Part shown: one piece after another, positions 13,712-34,833 of the stretch
How positions within the stretch are numbered: the first letter of the stretch is position 1
How the letters are laid out: each line of letters begins with the position of its first letter
IMG/VR virus record: IMGVR_UViG_3300009172_000019
Location: 1-36,633 of that record
Source: a virus
DNA length: 36,633 nt
Reading direction: 5' to 3' (one strand)
The notes under the pieces: generated by a model
The model's input: the letters and a program-made list of their open reading frames with translations, nothing else
Databases searched by the model: none
Told to the model about the DNA's origin: nothing
Program-made: the position numbers and the translations under genes

Positions 13712-14323
13712 TCAACAACCTATGGATTTAGGATCGTCATCATATAACATAGAGTCTTGATATCCATTTGGAATAGTACTTTCTGGTTTTGTAAACTTAA
13801 AACTAATGTTACCAGCAACAACTATTCTTTCATTCTCTGATTCACTCTTAGGAACAGAATGTTTTATATTACTTGGAAAGATAATCAAGTCACCTATCTC
13901 TGGTTCAAAAACTTGTTTGACTTCTGGAAAGACAAGTGGTGGTGAAGTCTTATCTACTTTACTATAGTAACACCAAGACCATAAAAATGGCCAATGTGTA
14001 TGTTCAACAACTTCTTCTGACCATCTTTGAACATTTCCCCAACACTCACTATTATGTAATTCAAACTTACCAGACATCTTCTCGCACTCTATCATAACGA
14101 GGTTTGTAAGTCCTTTAACACAATCATCTTGTTCGTGTAGATACCAACTTGTCATAGTTGCTTTTACATTTGATAAATGTTTATCATCCGTTGCATGTTT
14201 ACGAACGGCTTCTTGTATATGTGTATTCTCTACCTTGTCTAAAACATTAAGATGCACAAGAGGTACACGAACACTTGCATCGAACATACTACTAGAACTT
14301 TTTAATATATCCGTTAAGCCCAT
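13712..14323 (-). CDS. 2OG-Fe(II) oxygenase
   Basis: The 203-residue protein has the C-terminal double-stranded beta-helix pattern of 2-oxoglutarate/Fe(II) oxygenases. It has EHTHWPFLWSWCYYSKVD (H108, H110), PEIGDLIIFPSNIKHSV (H155) and a following ERIVVAGNISF in which R166 would bind the 2OG carboxylate. The layout resembles the PF13759 group common in marine phages. Such enzymes hydroxylate proteins, nucleotides or small molecules; the substrate here is unknown. The start overlaps the end of the radical SAM/SPASM gene by ten bases, so the two are probably made together and may act on the same substrate. It is the last gene of the unit started near 17575. Confidence 0.82.
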   Translation of the reverse strand: MGLTDILKSSSSMFDASVRVPLVHLNVLDKVENTHIQEAVRKHATDDKHLSNVKATMTSWYLHEQDDCVKGLTNLVMIECEKMSGKFELHNSECWGNVQRWSEEVVEHTHWPFLWSWCYYSKVDKTSPPLVFPEVKQVFEPEIGDLIIFPSNIKHSVPKSESENERIVVAGNISFKFTKPESTIPNGYQDSMLYDDDPKSIGC

Positions 14324-15378
14324 TCTTCCGTCCTCTTCTCTTTTAGTAAATTTATTTTTTTATTACAGACACGATAACATACTCTACATGGTTTGTCAAC
14401 CCAAGATTCTTTTAGTTTAGTAAACCACTGATTAGTCATGACTTTTGTTGCACCATATTTTATTGCATCATGTGAATCATCTTTTAGTATCTCACCTATA
14501 AGTCCATCTTCCTCAACTGGATACGATGGTTTGAAATAAGTATCTTTGGTTCTCCATCTGTGTATTGAAGCACCAACCCAACAACAAGGAACTATCTCAC
14601 CAGTGTAGTTTACAAATATCTCTTCATAATCATCTTGTAAAGCTTTACACGATATGTCTAGGTTCTCTGGCGGCCAAGGTATTGTAGAAAGGTTTGGCAT
14701 CTCCTTTGTTGTTGTCTCTTCTAATTTATGATCCACCCCATCTAACTTATATTTTTTGTATCCTTTACCATTGTGAAATCTTGTGGTATACACAGAAATA
14801 AATTTTTTGAATCCATACTCTTCCGATAATCTCTTTGCTTCTTCTAGTTGATGTTCATTATGTTTGAACACTAGGAAAGACCATTCTGCATTACCACCAG
14901 CAGATATAAATGATTTTGCATTTCGTATAATCTTATCGTAGTTTGTTCTATGTCTATACAATGCATGTGTAATATTATCTGTACCATCTAGTGCAAACAC
15001 AACTCTACGATTTTTGTTATTAAACATACTTCCGAAATGATACCACCATTCTTCTGTCTTTAAACTTCCGTTAGTAGTAACATTAAGTATTATCTTTGGA
15101 TTATTAAATATGAAGAACTCTACAATCTCATGTAAATCTTTAGTTGCGATAGGGTCAGAATAGTTTCCGACAAATCTTACATTTGATATTTGGTGTGTAT
15201 TCCAGAACTCATCATCAAAGATTCTTTCTATATCTTCAAGTCTAAGTTCTGTAGTTTGCATACCAGCCTGTAATCTTAATTCACCATTAGCAGAAGTGTT
15301 TCTACCACACTGTGGACACATGGCATTACACTTGTTAGATAATTCTATATGAACCTTTAAAGGTTTTCCGCTATACAT
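14314..15378 (-). CDS. Radical SAM enzyme with SPASM-type C-terminal cysteines
   Basis: The 354-residue protein has the radical SAM cluster motif CNAMCPQC (C17, C21, C24) after VHIELSNKC. In place of the usual GGEP it has VRFVGNYSDPIATKDL, as found in some SPASM proteins. The C-terminal third has a cysteine set (DISCKALQ, EIVPCCW, then CRVCYRVC) expected to hold one or two auxiliary 4Fe-4S clusters. SPASM proteins most often modify peptides or proteins, but some act on small molecules. It is followed by an overlapping 2OG oxygenase and starts right at the end of a 56-residue membrane protein. This is the fourth radical SAM gene in the window and is unlike the twitch pair. Confidence 0.9.
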   Translation of the reverse strand: MYSGKPLKVHIELSNKCNAMCPQCGRNTSANGELRLQAGMQTTELRLEDIERIFDDEFWNTHQISNVRFVGNYSDPIATKDLHEIVEFFIFNNPKIILNVTTNGSLKTEEWWYHFGSMFNNKNRRVVFALDGTDNITHALYRHRTNYDKIIRNAKSFISAGGNAEWSFLVFKHNEHQLEEAKRLSEEYGFKKFISVYTTRFHNGKGYKKYKLDGVDHKLEETTTKEMPNLSTIPWPPENLDISCKALQDDYEEIFVNYTGEIVPCCWVGASIHRWRTKDTYFKPSYPVEEDGLIGEILKDDSHDAIKYGATKVMTNQWFTKLKESWVDKPCRVCYRVCNKKINLLKEKRTEEWA

Positions 15379-15549
15379 TTACCACCATCCTAACAATCTA
15401 CCATTGCCTGTGATAATCATAAGACAAGTTACAATGTGTAATATAAACCAAGGTGTTCTCATGAGTAGATGAATGTGATCATCCTTCTTGTCATTATCAT
15501 ATGCACGACTACCCATTGCCTTACACCAATGTCTCCACAACTTGTTCAT
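15379..15549 (-). CDS. Small membrane protein, 56 residues
   Basis: The short gene encodes MNKLWRHWCKAMGS, a charged stretch (YDNDKKDDHIH), and one hydrophobic segment (PWFILHIVTCLMIITGNG) ending in GWW. The pattern of Trp-rich N-terminus, acid linker, membrane helix and Gly-Trp-Trp end is one I have seen in small proteins of T4-like marine phages; no function is known to me. The ATG overlaps the TGA of the upstream ligase-like gene (ATGA), and the stop abuts the start of the radical SAM gene, so it sits tightly inside the operon. Confidence 0.8.
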   Translation of the reverse strand: MNKLWRHWCKAMGSRAYDNDKKDDHIHLLMRTPWFILHIVTCLMIITGNGRLLGWW

Positions 15550-15839
15550 CAATCCATTTCCGTAGGTCTTAATTGAGATTCTTTTAAAAGTGATAAAGAA
15601 GCTTGTACAACTCTTTGGGGATATTTAATATCGTATCCAGTTCCTGCTTTAAGTGATTCTAAATCAAGTAATGGTTTGTGCCAGTGTTCTAATGTATCCC
15701 ACTTCTCTATGAGTTGTTTACATATGTCATCATATTCTGTATCGTCTATTAGACTTTCGTTTTCTTTGTAATAACAATATGATAACATTAAATAATAAGG
15801 AACTAACATGTTAGGATTTGTAAGGTAAGGTTTCTTCAT
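15549..15839 (-). CDS. Small protein resembling the N-terminal domain of DNA ligases
   Basis: The gene encodes about 96 residues from MKKPYLTNPNMLVPYYL. I chose this start over an in-frame ATG 18 bases earlier because it overlaps the upstream stop as ATGA. The segment YCYYKENESLIDDTEYDDICKQL resembles the helical Ia region at the front of NAD-dependent DNA ligases (a YY...D.EYD pattern), but there is no adenylation lysine motif, so it cannot be a ligase alone. Stand-alone proteins of this type occur in T4-like marine phages as I remember. The role might be nucleotide or protein binding; this is uncertain. It ends in an ATGA overlap with the next small membrane gene. Confidence 0.75.
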   Translation of the reverse strand: MKKPYLTNPNMLVPYYLMLSYCYYKENESLIDDTEYDDICKQLIEKWDTLEHWHKPLLDLESLKAGTGYDIKYPQRVVQASLSLLKESQLRPTEMD

Positions 15840-15973
15840 TCGCCAACTCTCATCCATTCTTCACTAGGCCGTCCTCTCATCATAGTTCTTTGGGTTCGCA
15901 TGTCATCATTATATATTACAGTAGTATAGATAAGACCACAAATTAAATAGAATTTTAAAAAGAAACTAAACAC
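15836..15973 (-). CDS. Small membrane protein, 45 residues, GTG start
   Basis: This short open frame would start with GTG inside the last codons of the upstream 29-residue gene and ends in a TGA that overlaps the ATG of the ligase-like gene. It encodes a hydrophobic N-terminus (FSFFLKFYLICGLIYTTVIY, one membrane helix) and a basic then acidic tail (MMRGRPSEEWMRVGE). The overlap with genes on both sides and the clean membrane-helix pattern support it. The absence of an ATG and of a clear ribosome-binding site leaves doubt. Confidence 0.55.
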   Translation of the reverse strand: MFSFFLKFYLICGLIYTTVIYNDDMRTQRTMMRGRPSEEWMRVGE

Positions 15974-16055
15974 CGGCAACTTTCATACATATGAGTATTG
16001 ATATAACTAACATAGTCAGTACCAGATACTTTTTATCTTGATGAGGTTCAAACAT
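15966..16055 (-). CDS. Tiny single-span membrane protein, 29 residues
   Basis: This is a 29-codon gene: a short charged start (MFEPHQDKKY), then one hydrophobic helix (LVLTMLVISILICMKVAGV). The ATG overlaps the TGA of the methyltransferase gene (ATGA), and an AGGAAG ribosome-binding site lies upstream. It is one of a chain of tiny membrane proteins in this unit. Function unknown. Confidence 0.6.
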   Translation of the reverse strand: MFEPHQDKKYLVLTMLVISILICMKVAGV

Positions 16056-16687
16056 CACATCTTCCTTAACATTGTTATACTTCCTTGGCGGAACTTGTTA
16101 GGTTCTACAATATCCATACGGTATGCACTTCCGCTCGCATTATTTAGTATTGCATCCATGTTCTTATTTGGTTGTCCTCTAAAGTAAGTAAAGTGAAAGA
16201 AACAATATTCAGAACATAAATCCCAATACTCTTTCATAAACTGTTCATACTCTTCTGGCCCACCACAATCAAACCATACGAAATCAAACTTACCATACTT
16301 CGGTTCTATCCATTCTCGCATACCTTGGAACTTACCGTCAATTAATTCTATCCAGTGTTTCTGAGGCACTTCGACCCGACCGAGCGACATATCATCTATA
16401 ATCACATAACGAGGATCATAAGGTTTCTTATAGTACTCCATATCATGATTATCATCAAAGTCTATTTGGTAGTTCTGTTCTATCGCCTCGGCAATAAACG
16501 GAGTCGTATATCCAACACCCACTTCCAGTATTCGCTGAGGACGTACCATACGAATCATACTCGCAAGAAACGGCCCTACGTTCTCTGTTCCGAAACCTTT
16601 CCGATAATACTTCTCAAACCGTTTTTGAGGTTTGACCGCTGCTGATATCACATCAAATGTATTAGCGTCTTTTTCCAGTGCTGTCAT
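16055..16687 (-). CDS. Class I SAM-dependent methyltransferase
   Basis: About 210 residues from MTALEKDANTFDV; in-frame sequence further upstream lies inside the preceding gene, and this ATG removes most of that overlap. Motif I is RILEVGVGYTTPF (about residues 52-64), followed by an acidic DMEYYKK region and KFDFVWFDCGGPEEY (motif IV-like). This is a Rossmann-fold methyltransferase of the kind that often acts on sugars, lipids or small molecules. I see no DNA-methyltransferase DPPY/NPPF motif, so DNA is a less likely substrate. It shares a tightly packed unit with a radical SAM enzyme and a 2OG oxygenase. Confidence 0.82.
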   Translation of the reverse strand: MTALEKDANTFDVISAAVKPQKRFEKYYRKGFGTENVGPFLASMIRMVRPQRILEVGVGYTTPFIAEAIEQNYQIDFDDNHDMEYYKKPYDPRYVIIDDMSLGRVEVPQKHWIELIDGKFQGMREWIEPKYGKFDFVWFDCGGPEEYEQFMKEYWDLCSEYCFFHFTYFRGQPNKNMDAILNNASGSAYRMDIVEPNKFRQGSITMLRKM

Positions 16688-17015
16688 CGTTTGCTTCCTT
16701 CTCTGATAGAACAACCAGACCACCCTTATTGTACGCCTGTCCTATGTTATAAGATTTAGTTAATGTATACTTCTGACCCCTTAGACAAGGACTCCAATCA
16801 TATTCGGATATATCTTTTTGGGGTAGTGCAACTGAAACACGCTCAGTTTTAGGGGGTGGGGCCTTTGCTTTGTGACTAGGGTCGTATCCCATACGTTTGA
16901 GATACTTCTCATGTTCTGCAATAGCAGCAACCATCTTCGCTGTAACCTTACGGTTCTTACGCTTCTTGTGATTGTTTGTATTCCAATACGCTGGAAGTAA
17001 ATGCATACCACTCAT
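16662..17015 (-). CDS. Conserved-type small basic protein, unknown function
   Basis: The gene encodes 117 residues from MSGMHLLPAYWNTNNHKKRK. The N-terminal pattern (SGMHLLP then a Lys/Arg-rich stretch, then AEHEKYLKRMGYDP) is one I recall from many T4-like marine phage proteins of unknown role. The C-terminal part (SEYDWSPCLRGQKYTLTKSY, then YNKGGLVVLS) looks like a small beta unit. The basic N-terminus could bind nucleic acid. It overlaps the methyltransferase start by 26 bases and is preceded by a 24-residue membrane peptide. Confidence 0.78.
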   Translation of the reverse strand: MSGMHLLPAYWNTNNHKKRKNRKVTAKMVAAIAEHEKYLKRMGYDPSHKAKAPPPKTERVSVALPQKDISEYDWSPCLRGQKYTLTKSYNIGQAYNKGGLVVLSEKEANDDSTGKRR

Positions 17016-18207: not shown

Positions 18208-18236
18208 ATTATACACACATATGGAGCGCTTGTCAA
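18208..18236 (-). promoter_or_regulatory. Perfect-consensus sigma70 promoter
   Basis: On the minus strand: TTGACA (18231-18236), a 17-bp spacer and TATAAT (18208-18213). Both boxes match the consensus exactly. It is followed by only a 15-codon frame before the next promoter at 18069-18097, so the two may give stacked transcripts of the same RNA. Confidence 0.85.
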
Positions 18237-18374: not shown

Positions 18375-19151
18375 TTACCCATTCGTTTCCGCTAACACGG
18401 GTTTTAGTCTATTCTCTCTCATGAAATCTTCTACTCTTATAGTGGGTCTCCAACCTATACTCTTCATGATACTGATGTCAGCAAGGGTCGTATGTCTCTC
18501 ATATGCCATCTCTGGGTACTCTTCTATTGTATGGCATGGTAGGTCTGGGCGTATATCTTGTATTGATATGTTAGTGCCTGTACCTATGTCTACTACTCCC
18601 TTGATATGGTGATGTTTTATGAGTTTCTTTATAGCACTGCATATATCGTTTACATGTATGAAGTCTCTTCTGTGATTTGTTGTATATGTTAGTTCATTGT
18701 TTATTAATTTATCAAATAGCATACCCTTTCTAGGCGTGCTACTATATACGGTGTGAAACCTCATGAATACTACGTTCTTATGTGGTATTGATTCTGCTAC
18801 ATACTTACTCCCAGCATATGGATTTAAAGCAGGTTCATACGCTGTGCTGCTTGATGCAACTAAGCATCTTATGTTCTTATAATGTTCTAATATACGTTGT
18901 GTTCCTATGACGTTTGTTTTCCAATAGTCAGCAGGTCGATTCATTGACTCTCTTACACCTCCTATACCAGCAAGATGAATCACCATGTCTATATTGCTTG
19001 GCAATTCTGCTCTCGTAATACATTGATGGTCGGTAACTTGATTAGGTGTAGGTCTGTGTATATCTAGTCCAGAGAGTACATGGTCGTCTCTCAGCGCATC
19101 CGTGAGTGCCGTTCCGATGAAACCCTTATGTCCAGTGATAAGTATGTTCAT
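18375..19151 (-). CDS. NAD-dependent epimerase/dehydratase (extended SDR)
   Basis: The 258-residue protein has the N-terminal nucleotide-binding motif MNILITGHKGFIG (G7, G10, G13), VIHLAGIGG, a serine cluster (LVASSSTAYEP, about residues 98-106) and the catalytic YAGSK (Y112, K116). RRDFIHVNDICSAI and a VVDIGTGTN segment complete the extended-SDR pattern of sugar-nucleotide epimerases, reductases and dehydratases. It is somewhat shorter than the usual 310-340 residues, mostly in the C-terminal substrate domain. It may alter a nucleotide sugar used for host-surface or virion glycans. It is last in a unit of small genes started at 20695. Confidence 0.88.
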   Translation of the reverse strand: MNILITGHKGFIGTALTDALRDDHVLSGLDIHRPTPNQVTDHQCITRAELPSNIDMVIHLAGIGGVRESMNRPADYWKTNVIGTQRILEHYKNIRCLVASSSTAYEPALNPYAGSKYVAESIPHKNVVFMRFHTVYSSTPRKGMLFDKLINNELTYTTNHRRDFIHVNDICSAIKKLIKHHHIKGVVDIGTGTNISIQDIRPDLPCHTIEEYPEMAYERHTTLADISIMKSIGWRPTIRVEDFMRENRLKPVLAETNG

Positions 19152-20729: not shown

Positions 20730-21806
20730 TTAGTAGTTATATTTATCCAATATGGACACTTTACGCTTACCGATTCGCTTTGATTCGGACAGTTGTTTCT
20801 GTATATGGTACATAACCTCTGGTTGCATCTGTTTTCGTGTCTTATCGTCCTTATATCGTGTACATTTGTTATCTGCTACACATGAACAGCGTATCTTTGT
20901 GCATGTCACGAAATTCCTGGGCAGCGTAATCTTCTTATCCTCTATATTTGCATAAGAACCACCTATCTTACATACTCCTCGTTGTATGTTACCATATTGA
21001 TCTATCTGACACCCTTCTAACCCTATACCACACAGCCAACCGTTGAAATCGTCCTCTTGTCGTGTAATCATATTGTTTGCCCACTCTTCCTTCGGTTCGT
21101 CTACCTCATTATAGTAGGCAAGCATGTCTGGTTGGTCAAATCTCTCACCAATCTCATCATATGATTGAGCATGTTCTCGTTCCTCTAACCACTGTATCTG
21201 CTCTGGTGTATAGAATGGGTCGTACTTACGATTGTCTGAATCCCATGTGCTCTTGGTTCGTATTCTCTTTATGTGGTGGTTTATCTGTCCTTTTTCACAA
21301 AATTCTACAATGTTCTGTACTGTATCCCAATACTCGGGCTCTGCCATAAGATTGACACTAAACTTCTTTAATGGTAATGCAGATAGGACATCCTTAAATT
21401 TGTCTAACTTTAGAAACCCAAAATGTGAACTAAACTGTATCTTCTCTACCCACTCCGACAACTCTTTATAATACTTTGGTAGTCTAGAACCATTACTGTT
21501 CAACCCCAGATTTCTTGCTCTGTCTGGGTATTCTGTTTTCAACCACTTGACAAACGGCAGAAAGTTTGGATTGATTGTTGGTTCACCACCAGTAAACCAT
21601 ATCTTGATATCCAGATTACTTGGTATCTCTGGTTCAATCTTTCTAAAGATTTCTTGGAAACTTTCTAGACTACGATGTTTTGATGTATAGTCATGTAGAT
21701 TGTCTGGGCAATAAGCACAATCGTAATTACATCTCTTACCCACATTCCAGTGAATTGTAAAGAAGTGTTGTGGTCTATTGCTTTGGGTGGTTATTCTAAA
21801 ATTCAT
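20730..21806 (-). CDS. Radical SAM enzyme with C-terminal cysteine cluster
   Basis: About 358 residues from MNFRITTQSNRP; an ATG six codons earlier is possible but lies further inside the methyltransferase gene. The radical SAM motif is CNYDCAYC (C26, C30, C33), followed by KIWFTGGEPTINPNF (GGEP) and NLGLNSNGSRLP. The C-terminal region has many cysteines (LCGIGLEGC, RGVCKIGG, CTKIRCSC, NKCTRYK), which suggests a SPASM-like domain with auxiliary Fe-S clusters. Such enzymes often modify peptides. It overlaps the methyltransferase by 11 bases and is the last gene of the 9-kb operon. It differs from the twitch-type pair upstream. Confidence 0.9.
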   Translation of the reverse strand: MNFRITTQSNRPQHFFTIHWNVGKRCNYDCAYCPDNLHDYTSKHRSLESFQEIFRKIEPEIPSNLDIKIWFTGGEPTINPNFLPFVKWLKTEYPDRARNLGLNSNGSRLPKYYKELSEWVEKIQFSSHFGFLKLDKFKDVLSALPLKKFSVNLMAEPEYWDTVQNIVEFCEKGQINHHIKRIRTKSTWDSDNRKYDPFYTPEQIQWLEEREHAQSYDEIGERFDQPDMLAYYNEVDEPKEEWANNMITRQEDDFNGWLCGIGLEGCQIDQYGNIQRGVCKIGGSYANIEDKKITLPRNFVTCTKIRCSCVADNKCTRYKDDKTRKQMQPEVMYHIQKQLSESKRIGKRKVSILDKYNY

Positions 21807-22515
21807 ATGTCCATCGCCACACAACTCTTTGTGGATTATCCTCTTCGTGTATACCTCTTACTTTTGCTCTGTATTGTAGAGCCTTTCTCTGTATATTATA
21901 ATGTTTGCGAGTCATCTTCCTCATATCCGTAGTGCCGACACCATCAATTGTAGTTTTTAGTGCAAACTCTTTCCCCAACCTAGTGATACGTTCTTCTGTC
22001 CATGTTATGTCACCATGTGCTACAATTGTGCCTGATGGTTTTAGTAGATGTACCCCTTGTGCAATTATTGATCTGTGTGTATCCTCATCTGTTGGCCCCC
22101 AAGGCCCAAGGATTAATACCCAATCAGCAATATTGGGTTTAAATATGTCCACTGCATCTTGTATTGGTCTAACTAGGTCTGATGTGGGGAATTTTACCAA
22201 GTCCATACCAATAAGATTCGGTATGATACCCTTGAATGGATTAGCACCACAACCAAGGTCAATGACTAACTCTGGATTAGTTGATGCTATCTCTTCTGCA
22301 AGTCCTCTTCCACTTAGTGACCTATACAATGGTAGGTTTTGTCTGATACTTTTCTCTATATCACCACTAAATCTTTCCTCCAGAATTTCGTGGGCGTCTG
22401 GTTGTCCATATTTGATAAGTCTATTCTTTGCTCTACTATACCATTGTTCTCTGTCCTCTTTTCTCATCATCCAGAGCATCCAATCGTAGTATCGTTTTGG
22501 TTCTCTATCTTCCAT
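21796..22515 (-). CDS. Class I SAM-dependent methyltransferase-like protein
   Basis: The 239-residue protein has an N-terminal helical part rich in charged residues and then motif I at about residues 84-93 (VIDLGCGANPFKG), GMDLV (motif II), ADWVLILGPWGP (motif IV-like) and LLKPSGTIVAHGDI (motif VI). This is a Rossmann methyltransferase with full SAM-binding signature; the substrate is unknown. It overlaps radical SAM genes on both sides (11 bases each), so the three proteins should be made in linked amounts and may act in one pathway. Confidence 0.82.
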   Translation of the reverse strand: MEDREPKRYYDWMLWMMRKEDREQWYSRAKNRLIKYGQPDAHEILEERFSGDIEKSIRQNLPLYRSLSGRGLAEEIASTNPELVIDLGCGANPFKGIIPNLIGMDLVKFPTSDLVRPIQDAVDIFKPNIADWVLILGPWGPTDEDTHRSIIAQGVHLLKPSGTIVAHGDITWTEERITRLGKEFALKTTIDGVGTTDMRKMTRKHYNIQRKALQYRAKVRGIHEEDNPQRVVWRWTYEF

Positions 22516-23767
22516 GAAATAAATCCTTTAATCGTAACATATTATTATCTATGCTATCCCAATTAGGGCGTTTTGGTCTAAGTCTGTCTTTAAGTTCTGT
22601 ATCATCTTTGAGTTGAGCCCATTGCACTTCTTTTGGCATACCAGTTTCCCCATTCGTTATGTGTTTAATAGCATCCTTTGATATTTTATCACCACCCTCT
22701 AGATAGTCTACTGCCCGTTGTATTGTATCATCTGGTAGAAATCTTACGTTTTGACATTTGGGTCTATACACAAAGTTTGAGTGTAAATTTATTAAATCTT
22801 TTCTACCCTCTTCACGGGCCCACTTTTCAAACTCTCTTATATTAAACAAATTAAACACACTTACAGTAAATTGATATGATATGGCTATGTCTGAAGCAAA
22901 CAACAACAATTGTTTAGTGTTTCTTGTCCATTGTTCCCAAGTGTGTGGATATCTTATATAATTATAATTGGCATCAGTTCCATCCACCGATAAATTAATC
23001 TTGGCACTTTTAAACTGACACATTTTTTCGTAGATGTCTGTGCCTTTGTATGTGCCGTTTGTAGTTAGTGAAAGTTCTATATGAGCTGAATGTCCAGTTT
23101 CTAACATGTAGTCCATCACCTCATGTACTTGTGGAATCAATGTTGGTTCACCACCAGTAAACTTTAATGTTCTTATGTGTTCTGCATTTGACTTTAACTT
23201 ATCATAAAAAGCAGGGTTTTGCCACCATTGTAATTCATCTGTAAACCCTGCTTTTTTATAGTCTGCCCATATTTTCTCTTTTTTCTCTTTACGGTTTCCT
23301 GCTTTATGCCACCATCCCTCTTTATAATTGTTCCACTTTTCTTTTGCAATAAGAGAACTAGATGCAGCTTCACACATATTGCACATTAGATTACACTTAC
23401 TACCAAGTTTTAAGTCTACATACGACCATTCATGTTCAGTTACAAGGTCATTCTCTAATCTTTCATTAGAACCTAGTCTCATACTTTGTATACCAGCTGC
23501 TTCTTGATCCCAACATTTATCACACCTTGGGTCTTTTATACCATTGTCTAAGTTGTCTCTTAGTGATTTCCACCAATCTGTTTCCCCATGATTTTCATTC
23601 CACATTGGTGGATCGCCAAACGTCACATTCCGAATGGGTGAAGTTCCTGCCTCCTTCTGACTTCTCATGAATATAGTACAACAAGGTTTATTCAGTCCAT
23701 CTGTAGACATACATATCCCACCATGTGCATAAACACACAGCGTGTTTTTTTTGTTAGCATCAATCAC
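22505..23767 (-). CDS. Twitch-domain radical SAM protein A (GTG start)
   Basis: The gene encodes 420 residues if started at GTG 23767. I chose that start over an ATG 16 codons earlier because it overlaps the ThyX stop closely and gives the same N-terminus and length as paralogue B (420 residues). A cysteine domain comes first (C11, C19, C29-C30, and CDKC at 82-85), as in twitch/SPASM auxiliary-cluster domains. The radical SAM core follows: CNLMCNMC (C125, C129, C132), GGEPTLIPQ (from 205) and LTTNGTYKG. The auxiliary domain therefore lies in front of the core, the reverse of normal SPASM order. It has an extra stretch after CC, including FMRSQKEA, absent from B. The reaction is unknown; protein or peptide modification is likely for the class. 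Confidence 0.9.
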   Translation of the reverse strand: MIDANKKNTLCVYAHGGICMSTDGLNKPCCTIFMRSQKEAGTSPIRNVTFGDPPMWNENHGETDWWKSLRDNLDNGIKDPRCDKCWDQEAAGIQSMRLGSNERLENDLVTEHEWSYVDLKLGSKCNLMCNMCEAASSSLIAKEKWNNYKEGWWHKAGNRKEKKEKIWADYKKAGFTDELQWWQNPAFYDKLKSNAEHIRTLKFTGGEPTLIPQVHEVMDYMLETGHSAHIELSLTTNGTYKGTDIYEKMCQFKSAKINLSVDGTDANYNYIRYPHTWEQWTRNTKQLLLFASDIAISYQFTVSVFNLFNIREFEKWAREEGRKDLINLHSNFVYRPKCQNVRFLPDDTIQRAVDYLEGGDKISKDAIKHITNGETGMPKEVQWAQLKDDTELKDRLRPKRPNWDSIDNNMLRLKDLFHGR

Positions 23768-24371
23768 GAAGCGCCGTCCAACTAATAGGAAAAAGTTCTT
23801 TTGCAGCATCGTCAATCATCTGTGCAATTTGTTGTGTTTCCCTCTGTGTATCTGGTTTACATCTTAGATTACATACACGGGCAAATGCCATAAGTGTACC
23901 ACTCCAATACCACTCCGTGTATAAATTCTGTGGTAATATCATTCTTGCCATCTCTGGTGCAACATTTGCTTTCAATAGATTGTTGTATGTTTGTGTCACA
24001 AATTGGACAGCACCATCAATATTGTATTCTATAGTTTCATCTGATGAACCTTGTTTTTTGTCATCTGCTTTAAGTCTCCATTCATTAGGAATGTAAAACT
24101 CTGGTTCATCATCTACATAACGTCTACTGACTTCGTTCCACACCAAACCGACTTGGTGTTTCACAAGTTGTCTTGCAACAAAGATTGGTGCCTTAATTCT
24201 GAATTGCATTGATGCATGTCCAAAAGGACTCCAGTGATTGTGTTTTGCAAGAAAATTGATGAGTTTCTCATCTCCTTTAGAAAACTCTGTACTCTCTTTT
24301 GCGAAAGATACACGAGCTGCATTTACTACTGATAGGTCTGTTCCCATCATATCTATTATTTCTACGTTCAT
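23760..24371 (-). CDS. thyX: Flavin-dependent thymidylate synthase ThyX
   Basis: The 203-residue protein makes dTMP from dUMP with FAD and methylene-tetrahydrofolate. Visible signatures are VVNAARVSFAKES near the N-terminus, LINFLAKHNHWSPFGHASM, and the ThyX-motif region VARQLVKHQVGLVWNEVSRRY. The classical motif is RHRxxSxNExSxRY; here the first part reads KHQ, the serine is replaced and there is one extra residue before NE, a form I associate with T4-like marine phages. It feeds phage DNA synthesis. It is an outlier in the modification operon, linked by an ATGA overlap upstream and an eight-base overlap with the radical SAM gene downstream. Confidence 0.92.
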   Translation of the reverse strand: MNVEIIDMMGTDLSVVNAARVSFAKESTEFSKGDEKLINFLAKHNHWSPFGHASMQFRIKAPIFVARQLVKHQVGLVWNEVSRRYVDDEPEFYIPNEWRLKADDKKQGSSDETIEYNIDGAVQFVTQTYNNLLKANVAPEMARMILPQNLYTEWYWSGTLMAFARVCNLRCKPDTQRETQQIAQMIDDAAKELFPISWTALRD

Positions 24372-24463
24372 AAACTTAATCCTCTAAAAACTAACCATAA
24401 ATTATATGTGCATAGTATAAGTGTTAGTGCTATTGCTATTGGTGCCGCCCATTTATATATCAT
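24368..24463 (-). CDS. Tiny single-span membrane protein, 31 residues
   Basis: The gene encodes MIYKWAAPIAIALTLILCTY then NLWLVFRGLSL, one membrane helix with a basic end. It overlaps the upstream 40-residue gene (ATGA) and the ThyX start (ATGA), exactly filling the gap between them. Function unknown. Confidence 0.62.
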   Translation of the reverse strand: MIYKWAAPIAIALTLILCTYNLWLVFRGLSL

Positions 24464-24582
24464 AACCACCCCATCGCTAGTTTAGTATCATACGGCACCA
24501 TCTCCATATTGAATGGTGGATCAAAAGTACAGTTTACTATACAATCTTTTGCACCAGTTTCATTTTTTTCTTCTGGCGTCAT
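24460..24582 (-). CDS. Short acidic protein, 40 residues
   Basis: The gene encodes MTPEEKNETGAKDCIVNCTF then DPPFNMEMVPYDTKLAMGWL. It has two cysteines (DCIVNC) and no membrane helix. Its ATG overlaps the TGA of the pentapeptide-repeat gene upstream and its TGA overlaps the next ATG. A small Cys-bearing peptide between a repeat protein and the enzymes would suit a modification substrate, but this is only a thought. Function unknown. Confidence 0.58.
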   Translation of the reverse strand: MTPEEKNETGAKDCIVNCTFDPPFNMEMVPYDTKLAMGWL

Positions 24583-25517
24583 TCATCCCTCACTTGTAGT
24601 GTTTCTGTGTTACCATCGTCAATTATATTAATGTACTTGTTCAAGTCAACTTCTTTCAGTACTTTCAACTTAGTAACAGTGAACTTAGAATTACTGTCTG
24701 ATACAACATCACCAGCATTAAACTCTACCATAAATAGATGCCAATTAGGTTTTGCCCCAAGTGCCATCCACTCTTTCAACACCCATGTCAATGGTGCAAG
24801 TGCTATGCCTGGATTCTTTGTTGCATCAATAGGTGAAGCACCACCTCTTGTAGCATCATATATCTTACCCACTTCATATACCATATGTGGGCGATAGATA
24901 CCACGCTTTCCTTCACCCAATAGTTTCCAACTAATACACTTATAGTCTGGTGGCATCTGATCGTATGCCTCCTTCTGACTTCTCATGAATCTTGGTATGC
25001 CAGTCGTCTTGTGTAATAGTGCTGAACGCCAATCACAATTAGTAAATCTAGCGCCTGTCCATACAGTTCCACGCCCATTTATGTCACGAAAGTCTGATTT
25101 TCTACAATCTGAACCACTAAAATCTACATACTGTAGTCTGGCACCATAGAAGTTTACACTTCGCATCATACAATCTTTGATTACACCACCACTCATGTTT
25201 ACATGACTCATATTTGCATGTCTCATATTACAGTTGATAAATTGTGTTCCCTTTAGTTTAGCGCCTGTAAAGTCTGCATCTCTTAGATGTCCAAACTCAA
25301 ATATACAGCCTGATAGGTCTGCATCCCTAAAACTACAGTTGTCAAAATACACATCCTTGATTACCTTATCATGCATAACAAGATTGTCAAAATCTAAGTT
25401 CAAGAAGTCTGGATTGTCTCTGCCTGTCAAGATATCTGCATCAACGCCCTTACCACCGTCTAGAAGTTCTACTAGTGTCTCATCATATATCTTTACACCC
25501 TCAAGATTGTATATCAT
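24579..25517 (-). CDS. Pentapeptide-repeat protein 1 with shared C-terminal domain
   Basis: About 312 residues from MIYNLEGVKIYDETLVELL; this second of two ATGs matches paralogue 2. Residues about 50-170 are pentapeptide repeats with A/N/D at i-2 and L/F at i (NCSFRDADLSGCIF, DADFTGAKLKGTQF, MSHVNMSGG), which form a square right-handed beta-helix. The last about 120 residues are a separate domain shared with the other two paralogues: GIYRPHMVYEVGKIYDA, NPGIALAPLTWVLKEW, LGAKPNWHLFMV and SKFTVTKLKVLKEV. In between is FMRSQKEA, an 8-residue string found also in radical SAM protein A. The start lies inside the end of radical SAM protein B, showing coupling. The role is unknown: DNA mimic, scaffold or substrate. 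Confidence 0.88.
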   Translation of the reverse strand: MIYNLEGVKIYDETLVELLDGGKGVDADILTGRDNPDFLNLDFDNLVMHDKVIKDVYFDNCSFRDADLSGCIFEFGHLRDADFTGAKLKGTQFINCNMRHANMSHVNMSGGVIKDCMMRSVNFYGARLQYVDFSGSDCRKSDFRDINGRGTVWTGARFTNCDWRSALLHKTTGIPRFMRSQKEAYDQMPPDYKCISWKLLGEGKRGIYRPHMVYEVGKIYDATRGGASPIDATKNPGIALAPLTWVLKEWMALGAKPNWHLFMVEFNAGDVVSDSNSKFTVTKLKVLKEVDLNKYINIIDDGNTETLQVRDE

Positions 25518-26763
25518 CAAATATTCTCCTCAAACCAAACGTATCTATTGAATCATAGTTAGGTCGTTTTACTCTTAATTTATCTTTTATTAATGTGTCT
25601 TGTTTTAACTTTTGCATTACTTCATTCTTCTCTTCTATAGATATATATGGTCTAGATTCGATGAAGTTAATTGCAGTTGTAGTCATCTTAGGATACTTCT
25701 TTTGTCCTTCTTTTAAATATACTAATGCCTTTTCTAATACATCATCTGGTAGATATCTTACGTTGTGGTGTCTAGGCCAAAACACTGGGTGTAATGAATA
25801 TCCCCCTCTATAACTTTTGCAACCACCAACTTCGTGAAACCATTTTGACATCTCTACGATGTTAAACAGATTAAATGCACTCATTGTAAATTGGTAGTTT
25901 AATTTTATTTCACCTTTATACAGTTGTAGTAGTTTTATATTTTGTTGCCACTTTTCCCACGAATGTGGATACCTTATATAATTATAGTTAGCACCAGTGC
26001 CATCTACACTCATTCGTATTTGTGATGAACGAAAGTTTAACATATCTTCCCATAGTTTTAGACTTTTGTTTGTTCCATTTGTAGTAATTCGTATGTGAAT
26101 GTGTTTAGCATGTCCAGACTTAACCATCCAATCCATGACCTCATGGACTTGTGGTATTACAGTAGGTTCTCCACCAGTAAATTTTAGTGTTCTTATGTGT
26201 TCTGCATTTGACTTTAACTTATCATAAAAAGCAGGGTCTTCATACCACTGTTTCTTCTCTGTAAAACCACCCAACTCATAATACTTCCGTGTCTGTTTTT
26301 TAAACTCCTCATGGTGTGATGGAAACAATCCTTCCTCTAATTCTCCTGGCCATTGTTCGTCCATATTATCGTACATTTCTTTTGCAATTAGTGAACTAGA
26401 TGGAGATTTACACATTGAACACATCAAGTTACATTTACTACCAAGTTTTAAGTCTACATACGACCAAGGGTGTATGTTTACTTTATCCTCTTCTTGAAAT
26501 TCATTACCACAAAGTCTCATACTTTGTATACCAGATGCTTCTAAATCCCAGCACTTTACACACCTTGAGTCTTTTATACCATTGTCTAAGTTGTCTCTTA
26601 GTGATGTCCACCATTGAGATTCATTGTGATCTTCACTCCAATGTGGTTTTTCACCTTCACCTTTTTTTATTTGACAACACGGTTTCGTGTATCCATTTGT
26701 GGATATACTCATACCACCATGTGCAAAAATACATTTTGTGTTATCTTTGGTGGTGGTTATCAT
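25501..26763 (-). CDS. Twitch-domain radical SAM protein B
   Basis: This 420-residue protein is a close paralogue of protein A. It starts MITTTKDNTKCIFAHGG with the cluster-domain cysteines C11, C29-C30 and CVKC (68-71). The core motif is CNLMCSMC (C111, C115, C118), followed by LKFTGGEPTVIPQ and a SVDGTGANYNYIRYPHSWE stretch shared with A. As in A, the auxiliary domain precedes the core. Its ATG overlaps the stop of pentapeptide-repeat protein 2 and its end overlaps the start of protein 1, so it is sandwiched between two repeat-protein genes. Some blocks match A exactly at DNA level (50, 37 and 32 bases). Confidence 0.92.
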   Translation of the reverse strand: MITTTKDNTKCIFAHGGMSISTNGYTKPCCQIKKGEGEKPHWSEDHNESQWWTSLRDNLDNGIKDSRCVKCWDLEASGIQSMRLCGNEFQEEDKVNIHPWSYVDLKLGSKCNLMCSMCKSPSSSLIAKEMYDNMDEQWPGELEEGLFPSHHEEFKKQTRKYYELGGFTEKKQWYEDPAFYDKLKSNAEHIRTLKFTGGEPTVIPQVHEVMDWMVKSGHAKHIHIRITTNGTNKSLKLWEDMLNFRSSQIRMSVDGTGANYNYIRYPHSWEKWQQNIKLLQLYKGEIKLNYQFTMSAFNLFNIVEMSKWFHEVGGCKSYRGGYSLHPVFWPRHHNVRYLPDDVLEKALVYLKEGQKKYPKMTTTAINFIESRPYISIEEKNEVMQKLKQDTLIKDKLRVKRPNYDSIDTFGLRRIFDDIQS

Positions 26764-27782
26764 TGCCCGATATCTTTTCCTTGATGAAATGCGGCTGTTC
26801 CACCAGTGTGATAATCAATATCCTCATTCAACAAATCATAGAACTCTTTCATGTCAATTTTTTTGAGACATTTCATCTTTCTGACATTGAACTTTGAATT
26901 ACCCTCTGCACGACATATAATACGATTGTGTACATGAGTTTGTATGACATCTTTGTATTTGTAGGACACCAGAAACAGCTGGTAATCTGGATATGCACCA
27001 AGTAAATTCCATTCTCTCAATACCCAATTGAGTGGTGCTAGTGCAATGCCTGAATTGTATTTTGGATCGATTGGGATTCTCACATCTGAATCATCTTGTA
27101 TCTCTGCATCAAACTCTTTACCCTCTGCATATGTAATCTTGGGATGATAAATGCCCTTACCATTAGCGGCTGCGAGTTTGTAAGCATAACCCACTGACTC
27201 TGGATCAAGAACTTCATTACTACCTACCTCATTCCAAAAGAAATGTGGTAAGTCTCCACCAGCATGTGTGAATTGTGTGTCTCTTGTGTTCATACCTCTT
27301 AATTTATTAGACTTCCATGTGGTATTTGAAAACTTTGCACCCCTAAGATTTGCTTTTCGTAAATCACTTCCTTCAAAGTGTGCATACTTAAACCATGAAC
27401 CTTGCATGTTCATATTCACCATATTACACGCCACAAACTTAGAACCATTACCAAAACATTGTGTCATGTTTGCTTCTCTTGCAACACAATTGATAAATGA
27501 TACACCTTCCAATACTGACCTATGAAAGTTCACACTCCGTAAACCACATTTGAAGAATGTTGCGCCTGTAAAATCACTATATGCAAAGTCTGTGTCATCA
27601 AACACCAATCCATCAAAAAACATCCCACGATAATCTCTTTTGGTTAGGTTTAGATTGTTAAATTTTCTTAGTCCATCCCCTGCTTGTCTATTGTGTTGTG
27701 ACATCGGTAATTTATCTTTATCTTTTAGAAGTTCTGGCAAATCTTCTTCATACCTTAATAAACCTTGTTTACTGTATATCAA
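26760..27782 (-). CDS. Pentapeptide-repeat protein 2 with shared C-terminal domain
   Basis: This 340-residue protein starts MIYSKQGLLRYEEDLPELL, aligned with protein 1. Repeats run about residues 50-175 (DDTDFAYSDFTGATFFKCGL, FEGSDLRKANLRGAKF). The C-terminal domain has GIYHPKITYAEGKEFDA, NSGIALAPLNWVLREW, LGAYPDYQLFLV and SKFNVRKMKCLKKI, with an extra about 16 residues (IQTHVHNRIICRAEG) not present in the other two. Its ATG overlaps the stop of protein 3 and its TGA overlaps the ATG of radical SAM protein B (ATGA). It is the direct neighbour of that enzyme. Function unknown. Confidence 0.88.
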   Translation of the reverse strand: MIYSKQGLLRYEEDLPELLKDKDKLPMSQHNRQAGDGLRKFNNLNLTKRDYRGMFFDGLVFDDTDFAYSDFTGATFFKCGLRSVNFHRSVLEGVSFINCVAREANMTQCFGNGSKFVACNMVNMNMQGSWFKYAHFEGSDLRKANLRGAKFSNTTWKSNKLRGMNTRDTQFTHAGGDLPHFFWNEVGSNEVLDPESVGYAYKLAAANGKGIYHPKITYAEGKEFDAEIQDDSDVRIPIDPKYNSGIALAPLNWVLREWNLLGAYPDYQLFLVSYKYKDVIQTHVHNRIICRAEGNSKFNVRKMKCLKKIDMKEFYDLLNEDIDYHTGGTAAFHQGKDIGQ

Positions 27783-28630
27783 TCTTTCATCTCCTCATAA
27801 AATTTTGCAATAGGATATTCTTTTTCAACTTTCATCTTTTTAACATTAAACTTTGCAATACCTTCTGCATTTATTACATCGCCTGCTTTAAAAGAAACAA
27901 GAAATAGTTTCCAAAAAGGATTAGCACCCAACATATTCCATTCTTTTAATACCCAATCAATAGGTGCAACAGCGATACCAGTGTTCATACTTCCACCACG
28001 ACCATCTGCTTCTGTTTTAAGTTCTTTGAATCCAGTTTCTTGTTGTTCTGCATCTGCTTCCAAACCCACATAATATTTTATCTTTGGATGATATATACCA
28101 TAACCATCTTGTTGTGTAAGTTTCCATGCATAACAAATAGTATCGGGCTCCATTATCTTATATTGATAAGTGTAATTGATCATCCAATCATGTATTTTCG
28201 CATGTTCTAGATGTGTTCCTCGCATCGCTACACCCTTCAACCAACAATTTGTAAAATCTGCATGTGGAAATCTAGCGTTACGAAAGTTAGACATTCTTAA
28301 ATCTGTGTCGGTAAAATCAACTCTGTGACCCTCAACGCCTGTAAAGTCACATCTAACCATCATATTGTCTGTAAGTACGGCATCTCTAAGAATTGCATTT
28401 ACAAGCCTACTCTCTCGTAAATTACAATCATGCATTGTAACACCAACCATGTTTGCGCCTGTAAAGTCGCAACCCCTCATGTATATATTCTTAAATGTGC
28501 TACCAGATAGGTTAGCACCCACAAAAGAACATTTATCAAAGTCCTGCCCTTGCTGATTGGGTTTTGACACAAATACTTGATTAGATAAATCTTTACCATC
28601 AAAGTTTCTATTTTTAGGGAATAAATTCAT
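27779..28630 (-). CDS. Pentapeptide-repeat protein 3 with shared C-terminal domain
   Basis: About 283 residues from MNLFPKNRNFDGKDLSNQVF; I prefer this start over one 11 codons upstream because it overlaps the upstream stop by one base (TAATG). Repeats run about residues 10-150 (CSFVGANLSGSTF, GCDFTGANMVGVTM, DLRMSNFRNARFPHADFTNC). The C-terminal domain has GIYHPKIKYYVG, NTGIAVAPIDWVLKEW, LGANPFWKLFLVSF and AKFNVKKMKVEKEY. It lacks the about 30-residue N-terminal cap of proteins 1 and 2. It follows the hydroxylase-like gene directly. The paralogues differ widely in repeats but keep the C-terminal core, which suggests that the C-terminal domain binds a common partner. Confidence 0.86.
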   Translation of the reverse strand: MNLFPKNRNFDGKDLSNQVFVSKPNQQGQDFDKCSFVGANLSGSTFKNIYMRGCDFTGANMVGVTMHDCNLRESRLVNAILRDAVLTDNMMVRCDFTGVEGHRVDFTDTDLRMSNFRNARFPHADFTNCWLKGVAMRGTHLEHAKIHDWMINYTYQYKIMEPDTICYAWKLTQQDGYGIYHPKIKYYVGLEADAEQQETGFKELKTEADGRGGSMNTGIAVAPIDWVLKEWNMLGANPFWKLFLVSFKAGDVINAEGIAKFNVKKMKVEKEYPIAKFYEEMKD

Positions 28631-29193
28631 TAGTCCATCTTTCCTTCCTCTGGGAATAACCACCAGCCTGTTGATATGTATTTAGAATGTTTATACACTG
28701 GATTGCCACGATGTTGCCATGGAAAGGCTGCTGGAAAGATTGCCATCATTCCCCTTTTGGGCTGTATCTTGATATCCTCTAATAAAAATTGTGTCTCACC
28801 CTCACCCTCATCAATATCGTTTAGATATATTGTCCAAGTTAATACTCTGCGAATGTTTTTATAGTGAGATATTTCCGAATGGAAATTATGAAAACCACCA
28901 CCTTGTGTGGCAGTTTTTTGTATTTTTGTTTCTTCTGATATTAGTTTCTTTGCTCCCTTATACACATAAGGAAACTCATCTAGGTACATGTCTAGAGTAC
29001 TCCTCTTGACTTGTTCTATCTTATTGTACAGATGAGTACCCACTGGCACCCACTTCTGCAAATCTTTTCTAGTATCTCTATTAGCAGTTACAGTTTTAGA
29101 TTCCGTATCTTCACGAAACCAATGTAGCATTTCCTTGACTAGTTCATGGTCTGCTGCATTTGTGTAACATCGACAAAAATCACTTAGGTTCAT
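28630..29193 (-). CDS. Prolyl-4-hydroxylase-like 2OG-Fe(II) oxygenase
   Basis: This 187-residue protein has the Fe(II) facial triad H105-x-E107 (GGGFHNFHSEISHYKN) and H161 (FPAAFPWQHRG), with K171 (KYISTGWW) placed to bind 2-oxoglutarate. RVLTWTIYLND and GEGETQFLLEDIKIQPKRG complete the P4H-type beta-helix pattern. Glu instead of Asp in the triad is allowed in this superfamily. Relatives hydroxylate Pro or other residues in proteins, or small molecules. The gene overlaps the membrane-protein gene upstream (ATGA) and pentapeptide-repeat gene 3 downstream, so a repeat protein is a reasonable candidate substrate; that is inference. Confidence 0.88.
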   Translation of the reverse strand: MNLSDFCRCYTNAADHELVKEMLHWFREDTESKTVTANRDTRKDLQKWVPVGTHLYNKIEQVKRSTLDMYLDEFPYVYKGAKKLISEETKIQKTATQGGGFHNFHSEISHYKNIRRVLTWTIYLNDIDEGEGETQFLLEDIKIQPKRGMMAIFPAAFPWQHRGNPVYKHSKYISTGWWLFPEEGKMD

Positions 29194-29402
29194 TTTGCTT
29201 TTAGAGTATCTATAATTGCCTTTGACAACTCATCAAAACTTCTCATGTCATTAATCTCGTTGTTTAATTCACTTATCTCATTGTAGATAGCGTCTTGTGT
29301 CGCTTTCATATCTACTACTGCTTTCTCTATGGTGATGAAAGCACCACCCACAGTAGCGATAATAATCATCAATAAAGATATTACTATTGTTTTATATATC
29401 AT
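29190..29402 (-). CDS. Membrane-anchored coiled-coil protein, 70 residues
   Basis: The gene encodes an N-terminal membrane helix (MIYKTIVISLLMIIIATVGG then AFITIE) and a helical coiled-coil tail (AIYNEISELNNEINDMRSF). The form resembles small spanin-like or scaffold proteins, but it has no lipobox and its place in an early operon does not suit lysis. ATG overlaps the upstream stop and TGA overlaps the hydroxylase start. Function unknown. Confidence 0.74.
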   Translation of the reverse strand: MIYKTIVISLLMIIIATVGGAFITIEKAVVDMKATQDAIYNEISELNNEINDMRSFDELSKAIIDTLKAK

Positions 29403-29695
29403 ATTTTACTCCATCCAGCATTATCACACTTGTATTTAGTTGTACCGATAAGAACCATATCTCCAACCATAGTGCTTCTACAAGCTTTACCATCAAACAT
29501 TTTTTCTACGTTAGTGTTTTCCCACCAACCACAATCAATATTATTTGTCAACATAAATGCTTCTTCTAATTTATCTTCATCAGTCTTTTCTTTATCAACA
29601 TAAACAAAAGCAACTACTGTATTGTCATGGATGACGCTCACTCTTTCAAGCTTGCTCTTTTCATAGTTTTCTAACAGTGCATCAATTTTTGTCAC
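29399..29695 (-). CDS. Small protein, first gene of the radical SAM operon
   Basis: The 98-residue protein has a helical N-terminus (MTKIDALLENYEKSKLERVS), a beta part (VVAFVYVDKEKT, then EEAFMLTNNIDCGWWEN) and a C-terminal ACRSTMVGDMVLIGTTKYKC unit. Domains ending in ..RSTS.GD.......Y.C...GW. are common in marine phage small proteins as I recall, without known role. A promoter lies about 26 bases upstream, so it leads the 29.7-20.7 kb operon. Confidence 0.78.
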   Translation of the reverse strand: MTKIDALLENYEKSKLERVSVIHDNTVVAFVYVDKEKTDEDKLEEAFMLTNNIDCGWWENTNVEKMFDGKACRSTMVGDMVLIGTTKYKCDNAGWSKI

Positions 29696-29720
29696 ATACT
29701 TATCCTCTCAATTAAGATTA

Positions 29721-29749
29721 ATATTAACACATAGGAGGGCTGTTGTCAA
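29721..29749 (-). promoter_or_regulatory. Sigma70-type early promoter for the radical SAM operon
   Basis: On the minus strand: TTGACA (29744-29749), a 17-bp spacer ending TGT (TGn extended -10) and TAATAT (29721-29726). It is the only promoter I recognise for the thirteen genes down to 20730. Confidence 0.82.
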
Positions 29750-34527: not shown

Positions 34528-34833
34528 CTAAACTGCAAAACTCTCACCACATCCACACGATGCAGTAGCATTTGGGTTAATAACTTTTAAATAAGAACCA
34601 CCTAACTCTTTTACATAATCTACTGTACAACCTATAACATACATTTCTGCTATAGGGTCTAGAACTAGTAAATCATCAATAGGTTTACCCCATTTGACAT
34701 CAGGCCAGTTTTTCTTAAAATCCCAGACATATTGAAATCCAGAACAACCACCCCCATTAACACCTAAAGTGATGTGGTCATTTTCTTTAATACTAGTGAG
34801 ATATTCTTTTGCATTATCTGTAAGTGTAACCAT
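34528..34833 (-). CDS. A-type Fe-S cluster carrier (IscA/HesB family)
   Basis: This 101-residue protein has the three family cysteines: C30 in GGGCSGFQY and C93/C95 in TASCGCGESF. The length and beta pattern (ITLGVNGGGC, LLVLDPIAEMYVIGCTVDYV) are normal for the family. An extra C69 is present. A-type carriers receive and pass on 2Fe-2S or 4Fe-4S clusters. The gene sits between gp48 and gp53 with two- and eight-base gaps, so it should be made late with the baseplate. It could supply clusters to a virion protein, to the phage radical SAM enzymes, or to the host. Homologues in marine T4-like phages are known to me. Confidence 0.93.
   Translation of the reverse strand: MVTLTDNAKEYLTSIKENDHITLGVNGGGCSGFQYVWDFKKNWPDVKWGKPIDDLLVLDPIAEMYVIGCTVDYVKELGGSYLKVINPNATASCGCGESFAV

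Follow-up and report, generated by a model that had tools for sequence, protein, structure and literature searches.

The polytheonamide (poy) cluster brings together radical S-adenosylmethionine (SAM) enzymes, a methyltransferase and a hydroxylase. Bacteriophage T4 follows an early ADP-ribosylation strategy with Alt, ModA and ModB, and pentapeptide-repeat proteins of the Qnr/MfpA type are acidic DNA mimics. Here, we analyzed a viral DNA of 36,633 nucleotides, positions 1 to 36,633 of the IMG/VR record IMGVR_UViG_3300009172_000019 (this whole stretch is called the window), in which a block of 13 genes encodes three pentapeptide-repeat proteins (PPRs) together with three radical SAM enzymes (rSAMs), a methyltransferase (MT) and a 2-oxoglutarate (2OG)-Fe(II) oxygenase. 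The new elements are a C-terminal domain shared by the PPRs, which is ADP-ribosyltransferase (ART)-like by its predicted fold, and the recurrent company in which this PPR/ART-like family is found. T4-like marine viral genomes, some of them near phage HTVC008M, combine an A-type Fe-S carrier with multiple radical SAM genes, in one case 12 (Nishimura et al., 2017, PMC5332604), and the presence of many radical SAM genes in such phages has been noted previously. The literature search yielded no description of this operon and, as far as the texts were accessible, none of a role of twitch-type radical SAM genes in phages; with the terms pentapeptide, radical SAM, RiPP (ribosomally synthesized and post-translationally modified peptide), DUF7666, ADP-ribosyltransferase and phage, the PPR/ART-like architecture was not found in print.

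The 13 genes are all encoded on the minus strand (20730-29695) and overlap at all 12 junctions by 1, 4, 8, 11 or 17 nt. Elsewhere on this strand 5 of 21 and 4 of 11 neighboring pairs of open reading frames (ORFs), hand-picked from mechanical ORF lists, overlap. In gene order, with two promoter-like sites at their places, the block reads as follows:

29721..29749, minus strand: early-type promoter-like site TTGACA-17-TAATAT, sigma-70-like, TG before the -10 element; kept before orf98 in the related loci L006 and L007
29399..29695, minus strand: orf98, GTG start, no family assigned; homologues in L006-L008 and L022
29190..29402, minus strand: orf70, 70 aa, hydrophobic N-terminus; nothing above cut-off in Pfam and NCBIfam scans
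28630..29193, minus strand: 2OG-Fe(II) oxygenase, prolyl-4-hydroxylase (P4H)-like; PF13640 (1.4e-10), phrog_61 (4.8e-37), HxE...H read from the sequence
27779..28630, minus strand: PPR-A, pentapeptide-repeat solenoid with putative ART-like C-terminal domain; PF00805 (6.6e-25), family alignments
26760..27782, minus strand: PPR-B, architecture of the PPR-A type, TTG start; PF00805 (1.4e-15), AlphaFold2 model with a predicted local distance difference test score (pLDDT) of 83.1
25501..26763, minus strand: rSAM1, N-terminal twitch radical SAM enzyme with CxxxCxxC and GGEP; NF033640 (235.3 bits, cut-off 170)
24579..25517, minus strand: PPR-C, architecture of PPR-A and PPR-B, a TTG start at 25520 also possible; PF00805 (1.1e-20), C-terminal domain pLDDT 80.9
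24622..24649, minus strand: possible internal promoter TTGACT-16-TATAAT, within PPR-C, before orf40 and ThyX; consensus match 11/12
24460..24582, minus strand: orf40 (40 aa), faintly similar to the C-terminal end of TIGR02945, the SUF-associated family (E 0.0011)
24368..24463, minus strand: hydrophobic ORF of 31 aa, from the ORF list and its overlaps
23760..24371, minus strand: ThyX, FAD-dependent thymidylate synthase (Thy1/ThyX); TIGR02170 (145.3 bits, cut-off 87.9)
22505..23767, minus strand: rSAM2, N-terminal twitch radical SAM enzyme; NF033640 (234.7 bits), 52% identical to rSAM1
21796..22515, minus strand: MT, class I SAM methyltransferase-like protein; DLGCG motif, family alignment
20730..21806, minus strand: rSAM3, radical SAM enzyme whose C-terminal part is rich in Cys; PF04055 (39.2 bits), phrog_13987 (4.5e-16)

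The original prediction, made from the DNA letters without database searches, had claimed thirteen coupled genes in one operon, which the uniform strand and the overlaps bear out. The P4H-like oxygenase, the SAM methyltransferase and the three PPRs that it named were confirmed by PF13640 and phrog_61, by the MT family alignment and by PF00805, respectively. Its enzyme classes were right, but ThyX, which is part of the operon, was not listed.

The three PPRs belong to a family of two-domain proteins that combine a pentapeptide solenoid with a conserved C-terminal domain. They are paralogues of 283-340 aa with 32-38% identity and match PF00805 with 73.3, 56.9 and 86.8 bits (cut-off 20.2 bits). 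The AlphaFold2 model of PPR-B shows the solenoid and a separate alpha/beta C-terminal domain. Compared with solved pentapeptide solenoids, among them MfpA, Qnr and AlbG, this model reached Z-scores of up to 22.1, with a root-mean-square deviation of 2.3 over 168 residues. The solenoids carry a net charge of -3 to +5 and five conserved arginines, four of which are invariant, the remaining one being present in 10 of 11.

The C-terminal domain probably has an ADP-ribosyltransferase-like fold. The domain of PPR-C was modelled alone by AlphaFold2, and in a comparison of the C-terminal domain model with 996 chains by VIA-align, 42 of the 50 listed entries were ADP-ribosyltransferases or Tpt1/KptA enzymes (Z 3.6-5.1), as judged by their title or protein family. 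The label is given because the list agrees as a whole and not because of any single score, and the listing leaves room for ART families that are not part of it. Several results speak against this assignment. The 42 ART-type entries are redundant, with many PARP10 and PARP14 chains and one toxin repeated; the highest-ranking row (Z 7.6) is a protein without an assigned function, and all Z-scores are below 8, a range that the tool describes as common. Foldseek returned no match at E <= 0.001 for the domain, and a search of solved structures with its sequence profile gave nothing at E <= 10. Classical ARTs have a His or Arg at the first strand and a catalytic triad H-Y-E or R-S-E. In the alignment of the C-terminal domain no invariant His or Arg stands at the first strand, where a Lys is found instead; invariant are Lys25, Tyr35, Tyr41, Glu76 and Asp97 (A6 numbering). 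A weak relationship to DUF7666 (PF24703), in contrast, counts in favor: six of 14 family members match it at E up to 1, the best with E 0.0019; the PPR-C domain scores 15.6 bits against a cut-off of 27 bits, so that it does not count as a member.

Loci related to the block show how its genes are combined. In L006 and L008 the order is 2OG oxygenase, PPR-A, rSAM1, PPR-C, ThyX and rSAM2; L006 ends within rSAM2, and L008 continues with MT and rSAM3. L007 has 2OG oxygenase, PPR-A, rSAM1, PPR-C and rSAM2 and then reaches the contig end. PPR-B is missing in all three, and ThyX is missing between PPR-C and rSAM2 in L007; single genes are gained and lost modularly. Moreover, single genes seem to swap alleles independently of their neighbors, because among L005-L008 rSAM1 is nearly constant at the DNA level (98.7-99.8% identical) while PPR-A and PPR-C diverge, each down to 81% in some. 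Between window and L008, PPR-C is 99% identical and rSAM2 62%; between window and L007, rSAM1 is 99% identical and PPR-A 80%.

That PPR genes are co-located with SAM-using enzymes, as had been predicted, is also seen beyond these relatives. In the distant phage L022 an MT gene comes first, then a PPR-A-like gene and then an rSAM3-like one, and the PPR directly adjoins the rSAM. In L015, L016 and L017 a PPR-B-like gene overlaps the methyltransferase gene MT1, which is followed by MT2 (identities of 63-69% for the PPR, 53-67% for MT1 and 53-66% for MT2). The neighbors of these three genes mostly differ; exceptions are a third methyltransferase, in the same order in L015 and L017 (48%) and elsewhere in L016, and a transporter-like gene that L016 and L017 have in common but at differing positions. 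L032 has a PPR-A-like gene next to a gene read as 2OG oxygenase, for which Pfam shows no 2OG match. L032 (PBDY01000027.1), filed under a Gammaproteobacteria genome, looks like a phage with many accessory metabolic genes. The PPR-B-like gene of L025 precedes twitch rSAM genes and two genes read as oxygenases (no PHROG match); a tryptophan halogenase (L025:6091-7269, PF04820, 3.6e-82) is encoded nearby on this viral contig with its twitch rSAM array.

PPR genes adjoin SAM-using enzymes in L022 and in L015-L017, but by the refuting condition of the original prediction, homologues usually found apart, the genes are often separate. The PPR-B-like genes of L023 and L024 have no such enzyme next to them. 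L021 has a PPR-C-like gene exactly between two genes whose homologues abut in a 148-kb relative, and the 8 kb of this locus contain none of the enzymes. With MT1 as query, the three seed contigs and one new locus, L118 (38% identical), were found, which encodes no PPR and has genes read as sulfotransferases instead; as only L118 was new, this reciprocal search counts one independent case, without PPR. Finally, a PPR of this family occurs in 0 of 80 loci of the LPWI-type twitch subgroup (L033-L112, the best 80 of at least 566 confirmed stretches), a test that is indirect because this subgroup is distant from rSAM1 and rSAM2.

The association of PPR genes with the enzymes was evaluated by adjacency tests and is suggestive. 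L006 and L024, near-duplicates of L008 and L023, were dropped before counting, and in the grouped tests L007 and L008 were dropped as well; these two are biased because they were found through rSAM1. The ten loci other than the window are stretches of unequal lengths cut from contigs. The first test gave adjacency in 7 of 9 groups with 2.36 expected (P = 0.0003) and in 9 of 11 loci (0 of 20,000 shuffles), and it leans towards the claim because the 2OG seeds were partly hand-picked beside PPRs. Restricted to rSAM and MT, 5 of 9 groups showed adjacency (P = 0.007), and 4 of 8 with the window left out (P = 0.028). Without the window and with 2OG oxygenases found from the window's two oxygenases only, the result was 4/8 (P = 0.038). 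Counting L015-L017 once gave 3/7 with the window included (P = 0.079). The strictest count, rSAM and MT with L015-L017 taken once and the window left out, was 2/6 (P = 0.25), which is not significant.

The site at 29749-29721 stands 25 nt before the start of orf98. L006 and L007 keep, upstream of orf98, its -35 hexamer, its spacing and the TA..AT of its -10 element, and the other bases vary; the 100 bases preceding the L022 homologue of orf98 contain no TTGACA. Similar elements occur at 18236, 18097, 17861 and 17580. The two at 17861 and 17580, on the minus strand, are nearly identical early-promoter-like sequences of 46 bases (TTGACATTTGCTCGTATGTGTGGTATTATG...), with those at 18236 and 18097 as relatives. 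A generic promoter scan gave 56 sites with 48.0 +/- 7.4 expected, a number not above chance; therefore, the scan alone proves nothing. In addition, TATAAATA boxes, which look like late promoters where they precede structural genes, are located 26-40 bases before gp48, gp5, gp25 and a wedge gene whose start is at 3232. Among the minus-strand copies surveyed in the window, no TATAAATA box lies inside the 13-gene block.

A single promoter for the block, as originally predicted, is likely on account of the conserved 29749 site, and no more than likely given that the block itself contains a closer match to the consensus. The best scan site within it is the internal one at 24649-24622, with 11/12 consensus positions compared with 10/12 for the 29749 site; it is conserved in L005, L006 and L008, lost in L007 and L021, and could split the operon. 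The block is probably expressed early. Here, too, there are points that count against the reading: this timing is judged from promoter shape only, and other minus-strand TATAAATA copies stand before accessory ORFs (13605, 13335), 109 bases before 3232, or inside genes.

The structural genes of the window, whose source record is an IMG/VR virus genome, are of the type of T4-like contractile-tail phages. Its gp6-like baseplate wedge protein shares 51% identity with that of Methylophilales phage Melnitz, 50.5% with that of Pelagibacter phage Mosig and 47% with that of HTVC008M. The baseplate genes follow the order tail tube cap, phrog_232 wedge, phrog_350 tail, accessory genes, gp5, gp25 and gp6 in the window and in Melnitz-1, with phrog_232 and phrog_350 matches in both, as is characteristic of Melnitz-type T4-like myophages (Kyanoviridae). 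By sequence, the source phage is a Melnitz/HTVC008M-like marine myophage. The 13-gene block occupies the interval between gp5 and the phrog_350 tail gene, which we take by its position to be gp27-like. In Melnitz this interval contains different genes, mostly hypothetical, plus a single 2OG oxygenase and tRNAs; gp5 of HTVC008M comes close behind the phrog_350 position, and accessory genes are located between gp5 and gp25. Therefore, the block sits in an accessory-gene interval. A record of 148,443 bases, IMGVR_UViG_3300027791_000007, contains the whole block in nearly identical form.

We tentatively prefer the interpretation that the block is an early, host-directed accessory operon with the PPR/ART-like proteins as adaptors or effectors, because of its probable early expression, the near-neutral solenoids with conserved Arg and the ART-like domain. 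The PPRs would be made early and act in the host cell, where the solenoid, not strongly acidic and with its five conserved Arg, may bind a target, and the ART-like domain may bind a nucleotide or transfer ADP-ribose. The radical SAM enzymes, the methyltransferase and the oxygenase would act beside the PPRs and, instead of producing a RiPP-type peptide, work on metabolites or targets of the host, and they may modify the same targets as the PPRs; PPRs and enzymes would sometimes be inherited as units (PPR-MT1-MT2). In a more far-reaching and improbable version, the phage-specific PPR/ART-like family would serve as exchangeable target-recognition partners of rSAM, methyltransferase and oxygenase in an early modular system of protein or RNA modification for host takeover. 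It is possible, rather than probable, that the genes have accumulated in a hot spot and share only promoter and insertion interval, with ThyX acting in thymidylate supply, the 2OG oxygenase and rSAMs in other metabolism and the PPRs as an independent moron. The mid-operon ThyX that L007 lacks, the absence of PPR-B from L006, L007 and L008, the lone PPR-C-like gene in L021, the PPR-B-like genes of L023 and L024 without adjacent enzymes, the MT1-like gene of L118 without PPR, the mosaic alleles and the strictest adjacency count all fit this explanation. It accounts less well for PPR-MT1-MT2 in the same order in three contigs whose other genes are mostly different, for the PPR adjoining an rSAM in the distant L022, and for the looser adjacency tests, which are above chance, including the one with hand-picked seeds.

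The original prediction had compared the enzyme mix with the poy cluster and proposed that the rSAMs, the methyltransferase and the hydroxylase modify the PPRs, as substrates or scaffolds. Gene content and overlaps, the position of PPRs beside rSAM or MT in several phages and the distant relationship, in NCBIfam scans, of the NF033640 enzymes to peptide maturases among others are in favor of this model. The PPRs, however, are folded two-domain proteins of 283-340 aa without a recognized leader and not leader-core peptides, the partner alleles are not co-inherited, and the distant twitch loci sampled lack such a PPR, so that the claim of PPRs as substrates of one pathway is not supported. A RiPP reading was rejected, as the search of the 13 ORFs with Pfam and NCBIfam found no precursor family, a search that a precursor of an undescribed family would escape. 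Enzymes modifying the PPRs, or making a peptide, have no direct support, and we regard the model as unlikely. Still less likely is that the PPR solenoids mimic DNA in the manner of Qnr and MfpA and act early in infection as inhibitors of gyrase or restriction enzymes. MfpA, Qnr and AlbG are indeed among the solved structures that match the solenoid, but any pentapeptide solenoid would give these matches, solenoids with five conserved Arg and a net charge of -3 to +5 are not strongly acidic, and the C-terminal domain would be left unexplained.

All three radical SAM enzymes score above the cut-off of PF04055. As predicted, two are of the twitch type: rSAM1 and rSAM2, both with complete CxxxCxxC and GGEP motifs, are members of NF033640 (N_Twi_rSAM), and rSAM3 (31.4 bits) and a fourth enzyme of the window, rSAM4 (43.3 bits), are not. 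In an alignment of six rSAM1/2-type rows C111-C115-C118 and C11, C29, C30, C68 and C71 are invariant; the N-terminal cysteines of rSAM1 and rSAM2 fit the pattern of an auxiliary cluster, and cluster binding is predicted. Within NF033640 both enzymes form a divergent subgroup, with 20-29% identity to the twitch-type enzymes of L025, L030 and L031. A search with the rSAM1/2 profile recovered only four records, all already known and each with PPRs; the same profile matched only surface proteins among PDB sequences, which was judged as chance. The third enzyme had been called SPASM-like. It is a radical SAM enzyme with five C-terminal cysteines (259, 279, 302, 307 and 309) that are invariant among three sequences, two of these 98% identical, but no SPASM model was above cut-off for it (25 NCBIfam models listed). 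Viperin was considered and dismissed, since the best scores of PADLOC pVip models for rSAM1-3 (27-44 bits) and of NF038283 (21-35 bits, cut-off 180) were judged to reflect generic radical SAM similarity. Environmental phages have twitch-type radical SAM genes in abundance, with at least 600 pattern matches. L030, L031 and L033-L112 contain radical SAM arrays, often with genes read as oxygenases, glycosyltransferases and other metabolic enzymes; in L033-L112 the mean is 4.1 radical SAM genes per locus, and loci reach about 21 kb.

MT has no match of its own in Pfam, PHROG or NCBIfam scans. Its family aligns with class I methyltransferases, and 7 of 12 members, the block MT not among them, match Methyltransf_11; further copies of the family are found elsewhere in the phage. 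As sole query against PDB sequences MT gave nothing useful. By tblastn, the 2OG oxygenase is matched in 404 phage records, most of them from cyanophages. phrog_2297 and phrog_274, labelled DNA endonuclease, match this oxygenase (28630-29193) and L114, and these labels, as well as 'DNA endonuclease V' in HTVC008M, may be wrong. In tblastn searches against isolated phages, rSAM1 matched three records, PPR-B one, rSAM3 two, and MT and two PPR C-terminal domains none; none of the matches is close. For orf40 a SufT-like identity was discarded, as TIGR02945 is far below its cut-off and PF01883 gave no match. A second accessory block is encoded on the minus strand at 13712-16723 and 18375-19151. It contains the rSAM4 gene (14314-15378, with GNYSDP in place of GGEP), another 2OG oxygenase gene that overlaps it, a nucleotide-sugar epimerase and a protein without family matches, read as methyltransferase. 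An A-type Fe-S carrier (IscA-like, PF01521) is encoded at 34528-34833 on the minus strand, flanked by the genes of the tail tube cap and the phrog_232 wedge, and was found in all four records searched; it would supply the radical SAM enzymes.

The conserved two-domain PPR family gives a concrete, testable partner for the twitch-type radical SAM enzymes of phages. If its C-terminal domain were a working ADP-ribosyltransferase, early ADP-ribosylation of the T4 type would extend to marine phages, in a PPR-fused architecture. The window resembles the Fe-S-rich T4-like genomes of PMC5332604, with the A-type carrier at 34528-34833 and four rSAMs; no mention of pentapeptide-repeat proteins or of such an operon was found in the available excerpts of that paper. 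The poy cluster has a similar enzyme mix; in contrast to it, no precursor family was found in the block by the Pfam and NCBIfam scans, its PPRs are full folded proteins and ThyX is included. The model of the PPR C-terminal domain resembles Arr, KptA/Tpt1 and PARP in general topology, without a sequence match to them and without recognized classical catalytic residues. With Qnr, MfpA, HetL and AlbG the PPRs share the solenoid family and its fold, to which those of the window add the conserved C-terminal domain and a solenoid that is near neutral to basic.

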